Source of the DNA: Paenibacillus sp. FSL H7-0326
GTDB taxonomy: Bacteria > Bacillota > Bacilli > Paenibacillales > Paenibacillaceae
NCBI RefSeq assembly: GCF_001955535.1
Contig: NZ_MPVN01000012.1
Coordinates: 1-64,000, forward strand
DNA: 64,000 bases
Reading direction: 5' to 3'
A model generated the notes under the pieces. The model did not search any database. It saw nothing but the letters and a program-made list of their open reading frames with translations, and was not told where the DNA came from. Positions 23,158 to 50,708 of the stretch are shown in pieces; position 1 is the first letter of the stretch; every line of letters begins with the position of its first letter. The position numbers and the translations under genes were made by a program.

Positions 23158-23239
23158 TAAATACCAGTTGACTTTGGTCTGCTGAATCTGTTACTCTGTA
23201 AAAGTTGTTAAGTCATAAGTGACTGACCCTTAAATTCGA

Positions 23240-23374
23240 ATATGCTTACCGTAGACAGTAGGTGCTTGTTATAAGCTTAATTTCCTACCGAGGTGTGATG
23301 ATAGAACGTATCAATTGAGTTTCTATGCTCAATCTGACTTTATCAAGCCTTCGTGATTCTACGGAGGCTTTTCT
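23240..23374 (+). promoter_or_regulatory. L10 leader and attenuator of rplJ-rplL
   Basis: The 349-base gap before rplJ has the L10-leader type of fold: GTAGG 23258-23262 pairs with CCTAC 23284-23288, enclosing the small hairpin GCTT/AAGC (23264-23276). A terminator-like hairpin follows, 10 bp with one G-U pair (23345-23354 / 23361-23370), then TTTTCTT. Known L10 leaders bind L10(L12)4 and reduce rplJL expression by promoting termination. Recognition is by sequence pattern and position only. Confidence 0.75.
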
Positions 23375-23506
23375 TATTGGATAAATGAAGCTGATACATC
23401 GGATCAAGCCTCACCTATCTTACGGGAAACTTCCGCTTCTAGCGGTTAACGAAGATGCGAAGTGCCATGCGGTACTGAGCAAGGAATCTATCAGGAGGTG
23501 TACAAT

Positions 23507-47796: not shown

Positions 47797-49094
47797 TGCT
47801 CACATCCCTAAAGAATATATGGCGAGTCGAAGATCTTCGTAAACGAATATTGTTCACTCTCTTTGTTCTAATTATTTACCGCATCGGCTCCTTTGTTCCT
47901 GTTCCAGGAGTTAACAAGGAAGTATTCGACGCGGTAGATTCGCAAGGCAGGGAATTGTTCGGTCTTCTGAACACATTCTCAGGCGGAGCGTTGTTCCAGT
48001 TCTCGATCTTTGCGCTAGGGATTATGCCATATATTACAGCATCCATCATTACACAATTGTTATCGATGGATGTTATTCCGAAGCTTGCGGAATGGGCCAA
48101 ACAAGGTGAGCATGGTAAGAAAAAATTAGCCCAGCTCACTCGGTATGGTACAGTGGTGTTGGGATTAATCCAAGCATTTGGTACATCGATCGGATTTAAC
48201 CGGTTGTATGGACAGGAAATGGTGCCTAATGCTACTTTCGTTGACTATATTGTCATCGCGATTGTATTGACGGCAGGTACTTCATTCCTCATGTGGCTTG
48301 GTGAGCAGATTACGGAAAGAGGTATTGGTAACGGGATTTCAATCATTATCTTTGCCGGTATCGTTGCTACCATTCCGAATGTTATCCGTACAACAATAGA
48401 ATCAGAATTTATTCAGGCAGATCAGCTGTTCATGAACATCCTTAAGGTGGTTATTGTGGCACTGGTTCTTCTCCTGACCATTGTAGGGGTTATCTACATC
48501 CAGCAGGCGATCCGGAAGATCCCGGTTCAATATGCAAAACGTGTTGTAGGTAACAAAATGTATGGTGGACAAAACACCCATATTCCGCTGAAAATCAATG
48601 CGGCGGGCGTTATCCCTGTCATTTTCGCTGTATCACTTCTTCAGTTTCCGATCATTATCGCATCCTTCTGGGCCGGTTATGGCTGGGCTAACTGGGTTAC
48701 AACGCATTTGTCTTATGACAAACCGTTAGGTATGGTGCTCTATGTTATCATGATTATTGGTTTCACGTTCTTCTACACTTTCGTGCAGATGAACCCGCAG
48801 CAAATGGCTGATAACATGAAGAAGAACGGCGGTTATATCCCAGGCATTCGTCCGGGTAAAGCAACTGAGAAATACTTGTCCCGTGTCTTGACTCGTTTGA
48901 CGATGACCGGAGCTTTGTTCTTGGCTGTCATTTCCGTTCTACCTGTATTCTTGGGCTCACTTTCCGGTTTGCCTCAAGTTGCACAGCTTGCTGGTACTTC
49001 CATGCTGATCGTTATTGGTGTAGCATTGGATACGACCAAGCAGATTGAAAGTCAATTGATCAAACGCCATTACAAAGGTTTCATCAATAAATAG
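47796..49094 (+). CDS. secY: Preprotein translocase subunit SecY
   Basis: 432 residues and about ten transmembrane helices. Forms the protein-conducting channel with SecE (21124) and SecG. Starts inside the rplO stop codon, so it is translationally coupled. Conserved plug and lateral-gate regions (GALFQFSIFALGIMPYITAS) are intact. Confidence 0.97.
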   Translation: MLTSLKNIWRVEDLRKRILFTLFVLIIYRIGSFVPVPGVNKEVFDAVDSQGRELFGLLNTFSGGALFQFSIFALGIMPYITASIITQLLSMDVIPKLAEWAKQGEHGKKKLAQLTRYGTVVLGLIQAFGTSIGFNRLYGQEMVPNATFVDYIVIAIVLTAGTSFLMWLGEQITERGIGNGISIIIFAGIVATIPNVIRTTIESEFIQADQLFMNILKVVIVALVLLLTIVGVIYIQQAIRKIPVQYAKRVVGNKMYGGQNTHIPLKINAAGVIPVIFAVSLLQFPIIIASFWAGYGWANWVTTHLSYDKPLGMVLYVIMIIGFTFFYTFVQMNPQQMADNMKKNGGYIPGIRPGKATEKYLSRVLTRLTMTGALFLAVISVLPVFLGSLSGLPQVAQLAGTSMLIVIGVALDTTKQIESQLIKRHYKGFINK

Positions 49095-49207
49095 CCATAG
49101 GTTCCGGTAAAGAATGCAATAGTTCGCCCTTGCTGGTGAGTTGCTAAGACCGGCACCTATTGTGCTGTTTCTTGTTGAAGGGATAGTCTTGGAGGGAGTG
49201 ACATAAC

Positions 49208-49852
49208 GTGAACATCTTATTCATGGGCCCTCCTGGGGCAGGAAAAGGGACACAAGCAGAAGCGATTGTTAATGAATTCGGCATTCCTCACATTTCGACA
49301 GGCGATGCATTTCGTTTGGCGATTAAGCAAGGAACTCCTATTGGGATTAAAGCTAAAGAATACATGGATCAGGGTAAGCTTGTACCAGACGATGTTACCA
49401 TAGGTATTGTTGAAGAACGTCTTCAGCAGCCTGATTGTGAGAAGGGCTTCCTATTGGATGGATTTCCACGGACCATTTCACAAGCAGAAGCACTGGACGG
49501 TATTCTGGAACGTTTAAATACTGGTTTGGATCATGTCATCAACTTGAAGGTTGACCGTAACAAATTGCTGGCTCGATTAACAGGTCGCCGTTTGTGCAAA
49601 AATTGCGGTTCTACGTATCATGTTGTTTTTAACCCGCCTAAACAGGAAGGTATTTGTGATAAATGCGGCGGCGAGTTGTATCAGCGTTCTGACGACAACG
49701 AAGAGAGCGTAGGTACTCGTCTTGACGAATATATCAACAAAACAGCACCACTCCTCACGTTTTATGAGAACAAAGGTCTTCTGCGTCAAATCGACGGGGA
49801 ACAGGAAATTCATGCGGTATCGCAAGAGATCGTATCCTTACTGCGGGGTTAA
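49208..49852 (+). CDS. adk: Adenylate kinase
   Basis: 214 residues. P-loop GPPGAGKGT at 7-15. The LID domain has four cysteines (C130, C133, C150, C153) that bind structural zinc, as in other Gram-positive long-form enzymes. GTG start at 49208 behind GGAGGGAGTG. Interconverts AMP, ATP and ADP. Confidence 0.97.
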
Positions 49853-49857
49853 TGGTA

Positions 49858-50175
49858 ATGATCATTTGTAAGTCCGATGCAGAACTGGGTTGGAAGAGTG
49901 AGTCACGGTTATCCAGTACGCAAGTACAGGAAGATCAGATGGTTCACGATTTATCCCGGGTTTTGACCGGAGAACTTCACCAAATGACTGATCAATATCA
50001 TCGCAGTCAAGGGGCTGTGTCGTCTTTCACAGGTTATCACGGTTTTCCTGCCAGTATTTGTACTTCAGTCGATGAACCGAAAGTGCATGGGTTGCCCAGC
50101 TATATTCGATTGTTTGCAATGTCGTATGACGGTCGATCTGTACTCCATTTTTGCGAAGGCGAGATGCGTAGGTGA
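49858..50175 (+). pseudogene. map: Truncated, degraded methionine aminopeptidase
   Basis: 105 codons in the place normally held by map (about 250 codons). The first codons MIICKSDAELG and the stretch SQGAVSSFTGYHGFPASIC followed by SVDEPKVHGLPS are clear type I methionine aminopeptidase. The segment between lines up residue for residue with the family but many normally conserved positions are changed. After VHGLPS, where the metal-binding half should begin, similarity stops, and the frame ends 25 codons later at the KOW gene. Only the substrate histidine (VHG) remains of the active-site residues; both metal-binding aspartates, later histidines and glutamates are missing. It cannot be an active aminopeptidase. 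There is no in-frame stop, so a leftover or repurposed peptide is possible. Another map must exist elsewhere in the genome. Confidence 0.85.
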
Positions 50176-50182
50176 TGAGAAG

Positions 50183-50473
50183 ATGAATGAAGAAATCCCA
50201 CAAATCGGTCAAATCGTAAAAATCCTTCGAGGCAGGGATGCTGGCCAGTTTGCAGTAGTCATCGCTGTTGAGGACAACAGATATGTATATATTGCTGACG
50301 GGGACAAACGCAAGTTTGATGGAGCTAAGAAGAAGAACCTTCTTCATCTGGATCCCCAGCCGATGATCAGCAGCGAGGTTGTAAACAGTATTAACGAAAT
50401 TGGACGGGTTACGAACGGAAAACTGCGTTATGCAGTACAGCAGTTCATAAATGCAAGCGAAGTTCAAAGCTGA
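50183..50473 (+). CDS. KOW-domain RNA-binding protein
   Basis: 96 residues. The N-terminal half has an L14e/KOW-like domain ([20 protein letters not shown], then [15 protein letters not shown]). Proteins of this type lie between map and infA in many Firmicutes (YbzG in B. subtilis, from memory); they are presumed ribosome- or RNA-associated. I start at ATG 50183 with AGGTG eight bases upstream. A longer in-frame start would run into the map remnant and adds residues unlike the family. Confidence 0.85.
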
Positions 50474-50492: not shown

Positions 50493-50708
50493 GTGGCCAA
50501 AGAAGATGTCATTGAAGTGGAAGGAACGGTTATAGAGCCGCTTCCTAACGCAACGTTCAAAGTAGAGCTTGAGAATGGTCATCAAATTCTAGCTCACGTA
50601 TCCGGCAAACTGCGGATGCATTTTATCCGCATTCTGACAGGAGATAAAGTGGTTGTTCAGTTATCGCCTTATGATCTAACCAAAGGGCGTATAACTTATC
50701 GTAAATAG
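50493..50708 (+). CDS. infA: Translation initiation factor IF-1
   Basis: 71 residues, an S1-like OB fold that blocks the A-site during initiation. GTG 50493 ([19 protein letters not shown]) is behind AAAGGAG. Its start lies 19 bases after the KOW gene. Confidence 0.97.

Follow-up and report, generated by a model that had tools for sequence, protein, structure and literature searches.

Remnants of genes within essential operons are usually classed as pseudogenes, and the regulation of ribosomal-protein operons in Gram-positive bacteria has been mapped only in part. Translationally coupled gene pairs are generally known and offer a further comparison for neighbouring genes in such operons. As for methionine aminopeptidase (MAP), a study of Bacillus subtilis describes both enzymes, encoded by map and yflG, as active and attributes the essentiality of map to the high expression of map and the low expression of yflG (PMC1266368).

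The window, i.e. the whole stretch of 64,000 nt analysed here, carries adk, a 107-codon ORF, a KOW-domain gene and infA in this order, all on the plus strand. The adk gene (49208..49852) ends with a TAA (49850-49852) that overlaps the first ATG of the ORF (49852..50175); counted from the native map start, ATG 49858, the remnant has 105 codons, which confirms the first-pass annotation in that only 105 codons are left at the map position (105-107 codons, 49852/49858-50175). It is followed by the KOW-domain gene (50183..50473, ATG 50183), which by its position we take to be ybzG-like, and by infA (50493..50708), which starts with the GTG at 50493. The ORF occupies the position of map after adk, and its N-terminus is collinear with that of map. 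With the intact map of a sister genome as the query, the only match in the window lies at 49858-50106 and covers map residues 1-83 (49% identity, E 2.1e-17), far above chance. The TIGR00500 model aligns with residues 36-83 at 40.3 bits, below its cut-off of 171.35 bits, and a Pfam search of the remnant returned zero families, PF00557 included. The FDIG, GHGIG, IEP and FEHT blocks, presumably those of the metal ligands and the substrate, are present in 52/52 intact maps of the genus and missing from the remnant, as had been noticed at first sight for the metal-ligand part. It is thus near certain that the enzyme of the adk-linked map is dead in this genome. No paper describing the remnant was recognised by title or by the start of the abstract among the literature matches listed.

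The tail of the remnant (50074..50172) evolves freely and contains scraps, one of which resembles map codons 142-149, as judged by eye; another consists of roughly the final 15 nt of map, read in a different frame. The class A frame (defined below) ends out of register with map: it runs past the former TAG to a TGA lying 4 nt beyond (50173..50175). The early suggestion that the last 25 codons may hold a C-terminal scrap needs correcting in that the tail is not simply the C-terminus of map.

Five genes of the M24 family are present in the genome besides the remnant. Three of them have frames of 248-249 codons and are intact type I MAPs (TIGR00500 scores of 322.8, 265.9 and 262.9 bits), so the whole-genome search that had been proposed bears out the idea that another map can cover for the lost enzyme. 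The nearest of the other MAPs is 51% identical to the adk-linked map and has a counterpart at an identity of at least 81% in 75/75 genomes of the genus, which indicates that the redundancy predates the loss.

The adk-infA interval was read in all 75 genomes of the genus. In 52 of these, map is intact with 250 codons; 15 belong to class B and eight, including the window genome, to class A. The frames of class A are 106-119 codons long; those of class B have 177-179 codons, ∼71 codons being missing from the middle, and 120 codons in L071 because of a frameshift. A scan of named genomes identified class A as Paenibacillus and added a ninth class A genome, J45TS6 (L170), and an intact 250-codon frame (L175). 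The comparison of related Paenibacillus called for in the first-pass annotation thus finds the truncation in 8/75 genus genomes and in L170, and as it is common to nine genomes, a sequencing error or an assembly collapse, the refutation foreseen there, is excluded; nor can the remnant be very recent. The contig JAMBOW010000013.1 (L171), titled Neobacillus mesonae MER 107, also falls within the Paenibacillus class A clade and is probably misnamed. Outside the genus, 60 loci of the family were read: 59 carry a map frame, as judged from its length of 248-252 codons, and one (L116, genome G209) holds a third, decayed remnant with a stop at codon 71.

In a tree of adk, the KOW-domain gene and infA (50 rows, with 15 intact genus maps and 12 other-genus loci; L130 and L136 left out), class A and class B form separate clades, each supported at 100/100. 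Class A is placed beside the main intact clade (93/89), and class B is grouped with other intact species (99/97). Since each of the two is closer to intact species than to the other, the losses were independent, unless intact maps have been regained by transfer. Together with L116, this makes three independent losses of map from the adk-infA cluster among the 135 loci read.

With borders that were set after the class A alignment had been viewed, the remnant divides into segments of very unequal variability in eight class A genomes (L170 was left out of the site-variability and substitution counts, the stop-to-KOW distances and the stop simulation). The translation start region, E1 (49852..49890; ORF nt 1-39), has one variable site out of 39. 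The freely evolving segment that follows (49891..49968; nt 40-117) varies at 43/78 sites, whereas the block E2 (49969..50077), which corresponds to map codons ∼38-75 and is conserved as nucleotides, varies at 7/105 (49969-50073; nt 118-222), with two variable sites in its core (50002-50077). The tail varies at 41/99 sites. Changes in the free segments are spread evenly over the three codon positions (13/14/16 and 15/13/13), compared with 15/2/76 in adk, and codon-phase bias is likewise lacking when L170 is included. Over all sites, E2 is far less variable than the free segments (7/105 vs 84/177, p 7e-14), and its third positions are less variable than those of adk (1/35 vs 76/214, p 2e-5), the changes in E2 being few (7).

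A similar picture was obtained for the 15 genomes of class B, in which codons 38-90 vary at 17/159 sites, compared with 71/162 in codons 14-37 and 151-179 (p 1e-11), and at 4/53 third positions, compared with 77/214 in adk (p 2e-5). Codons 91-150, outside that comparison, lie between the two groups (42/180), and codon-phase bias is absent from class B as well. Two pieces of map, codons 1-13 and ∼38-75, are conserved at the nucleotide level in two independent losses, third positions included. The part that the first-pass annotation regarded as eroded is the freely evolving one, and the flanking blocks, which were taken for clear map protein, are those conserved as nucleotides.

In 22 closely related intact genomes of the main clade (21 for secY), synonymous change in map, taken in windows of 20 codons, is lowest at codons 50-70 (O/E 0.16); in the two genes compared, secY and adk, windows of 0.3 or lower are located at the gene ends. 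A broader cut of the intact genus maps gives a dS of 0.199 for codons 38-78, 0.241 for map and 0.370 for adk, and among all 52 genomes the third positions of codons 49-78 vary at 20/30, which amounts to a modest constraint. A family-wide synonymous trough was also considered; it is not clear outside the genus, as in two other genera the trough at codons 51-60 is absent (O/E 1.00 and 1.31) and codons 61-70 have O/E values of 0.45 and 0.71. We read E2 as a nucleotide-level element that, in this genus, would predate the loss of map. In the intact clade (L014-L035), synonymous O/E values are also low over the ∼20 codons at the end of secY and the ∼20 codons at the beginning of adk (0.15 and 0.28; window 49035-49267), possibly reflecting another signal around the adk start.

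The frame of the remnant is open in 9/9 class A and 14/15 class B genomes, L071 having the single frameshift among the latter. Across the remnant, the gapped columns of the class A alignment total 39 and 36, both multiples of three, and L009 has a 39-nt deletion within the counterpart of 49891..49968. By parsimony, the free segments have accumulated 137 substitutions in class A (8 genomes) and 178 in class B (14 genomes, L071 being left out of the stop count and the simulation). Given nonsense fractions of 0.037 and 0.030, 5.1 and 5.3 stops are expected, respectively, against zero observed (P 0.0057 and 0.0048; 0.006 and 0.0125 by simulation along the trees). Selection on the open frame is statistically supported by these counts, in line with the original remark that the frame has no stop and keeps its start and spacing. 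The distance from the stop to the KOW ATG is 7 nt in 8/8 class A genomes, 9 nt in 14/15 class B genomes and 8-10 nt in 52/52 intact loci of the genus; among the 59 loci of other genera, it is 3-4 nt in 23 and 9-10 nt in seven, 29 being without a value. The open frame and the geometry of its stop favour translation of the remnant, perhaps for the sake of coupling or against polarity.

The best-supported reading, to which we assign a probability of about 0.5, is that the map remnant is a dead enzyme gene retained for cis reasons, that is, a spacer that is translated and in which a nucleotide element serving the downstream genes is embedded. One of the other type I MAPs, found throughout the genus, may have made the adk-linked map dispensable, whereupon the enzyme was lost. 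Ribosomes would start at map's own start region and pass through the open frame, the residues being mostly irrelevant, and translation would end 7 nt before the KOW-domain gene, thereby staying continuous (by coupling or protection from polarity) toward KOW-infA and, further along, rpoA and the ribosomal genes. E2, the former map codons ∼38-75, would be the nucleotide-level element, with a core that seems to have been under synonymous constraint already in the intact gene, and would act in the mRNA on the expression of downstream genes. The translation of the remnant, the coupling and the RNA-level action of E2 are inferred. Evidence against a cis element comes from the third loss: the remnant of L116 has decayed, and its E2 retains 69/114 bases as in an intact relative, compared with 92/123 between an intact pair; 28/35 bases are kept at its codons 79-90.

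The same third remnant is an example of what a plain pseudogene looks like, and it may be asked whether classes A and B are anything more, i.e. whether map was lost, the remnant drifts, and the open frame and the conserved blocks are due to chance or recency. The free segments do look neutral, with a dN that approaches or exceeds dS in class B and no phase bias in class A, and the AlphaFold model of the peptide lacks a confident fold (mean pLDDT 37; a shallow alignment of 7 sequences). However, E1 and E2 do not look neutral, the third positions of E2 are nearly frozen in two independent losses, and zero stops are found where ∼5 are expected per clade. Moreover, dS of adk within the class A clade reaches 0.42-0.51, so that the recent pseudogene suggested at the outset is not borne out, and simple decay seems improbable for these two classes.

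Consensus folding was applied to all three forms of the gene, with 12 of the 52 intact maps included. In sliding consensus folds, the best class A windows, over ORF nt 1-160, reach z values of -4.8 to -6.9; class B has flagged windows to -3.5, elsewhere in the frame as well, and the intact maps have three, to -2.5. Over nt 1-165, class A has a z of -4.46 without L009 and of -2.99 with it, class B one of -2.58 and the intact maps one of 0.07; since values to -2.5 are also met elsewhere in intact maps, the class B value of about -2.6 is weak. The consensus helices of the candidate class A fold span 49880..49990, and the freely evolving segment 49891..49968 could fold into a hairpin in which pairs covary. 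Three base pairs have changes on both sides in the class A alignment without L009 and L011. The covariation score and the double-change cells of the class A fold (nt 1-165) exceed those of all 500 shuffles, and slid controls are lower, but the number of double-change pairs is not unusual, having been reached in 123/500 shuffles. Because such shuffles ignore relatedness, the support for this fold is suggestive only.

E2 itself has no significant fold of its own in the folding tests, and neither a three-way junction nor a long hairpin, both of which were considered for it, is supported. An Rfam search gave no match to the remnant or to E2, and no match to a known family of ribosomal-protein leader RNAs was obtained. 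Elsewhere in the window, an L10 leader RNA was detected at 23231-23383 (83.5 bits). The window also begins in the 3′ end of a 23S gene, and as searches of the assembly did not find a full 16S or 23S gene, the rRNA operons seem to have collapsed at the ends of contigs. Conservation of E2 in sequence without a stable RNA fold is what might be expected of a DNA-level element, such as a promoter, an operator or another protein-binding site, the frame being kept for other reasons. Nevertheless, sigma-A-like promoter sites in E2 do not rise above shuffles and ∼75 contiguous bases would be long for a single site, which leaves this explanation unlikely. No second copy of E2 was found in the genome and no exact match to its core in viral contigs. 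Gene conversion from another map copy was rejected as well, since elsewhere in the genome the E2 region matches best over 31 bases at 84%, and not in a map gene, and so was an antisense ORF, every antisense frame being stopped in or beside E2 in the 13 sequences inspected.

The domestication of a small protein, with a new function for a peptide of 105-119 residues in class A and a protein of 179 residues in class B, was also suggested by the first-pass annotation. It would agree with the retention of the start, the frame and the end, and, in the dN/dS comparison of class B and intact maps (18 intact maps; L071 and L072 left out), with a dN of 0.011 below the dS of 0.05 in the E2 of class B. 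This is the exception, however. The dN/dS measurement envisaged for the remnant gave, for the E2 block (120 nt) of L008 and L010, a dN of 0.079 above the dS of 0.039 (adk dS 0.416, KOW dS 0.549), 6/7 of the class A changes in E2 fall on codon position 1, third-position bias is lacking in the free segments and the predicted structure is not a confident one either. Ordinary protein selection is thus not what the remnant displays, and domestication appears quite unlikely.

Those same 6/7 changes leave an ambiguity in class A, as they occupy third positions of the KOW frame (+1). In 9/9 class A genomes this frame stays open into the KOW-domain gene from nt 137 of the ORF or further upstream. It might be the target of selection, perhaps by extending the KOW protein at its N-terminus through frameshifting or a non-standard start, but this is very unlikely, given that 8/9 genomes have no ATG, GTG or TTG before nt 221, that the class B changes do not favour that frame and that it is stopped within codons 49-72 in at least 39/52 intact genus maps. 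As an observation in its own right, the KOW frame of class A, open over 49988-50182 of the window and thus far upstream of the KOW start, would provide an in-frame N-terminal extension derived from dead map DNA.

Returning to the translated spacer with its cis element, the repeated and independent loss of map removes the protein constraint and thereby reveals what other needs the sequence may have, an open frame and ∼75 nearly frozen bases. If this is confirmed, it would provide a clean and testable route to regulatory elements hidden in the coding genes of ribosomal-protein operons. A bolder version can be put forward only tentatively: map of Paenibacillus in the strict sense may contain, at codons ∼50-70, a cis-acting RNA element without an Rfam family that predated and outlived the enzyme, two lineages having turned the dead gene into its translated carrier, which would set the expression of KOW-infA and of the genes beyond, rpoA among them.

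Among known systems, the autoregulatory RNAs of Firmicutes ribosomal proteins (L10 and L20 leaders) are similar in that conserved non-protein sequence precedes genes of a ribosomal cluster. E2, in contrast, lies midway in a long cluster, inside a coding or formerly coding gene; it has no Rfam match and shows no significant fold. As in translationally coupled gene pairs, the upstream frame stops close to the following start, at a distance of 7-10 nt in the genus, whether map is intact or dead and apart from L071; here the upstream product is dispensable, and the coupling is putative. The map gene of B. subtilis, which belongs to the spc-alpha cluster and is accompanied by the second enzyme YflG, resembles the Paenibacillus locus in its position after adk, its start region, residues 1-83 and the presence of further MAP genes. 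The remnant, however, codes for no enzyme, and in Paenibacillus the other MAP genes would have to do the work.
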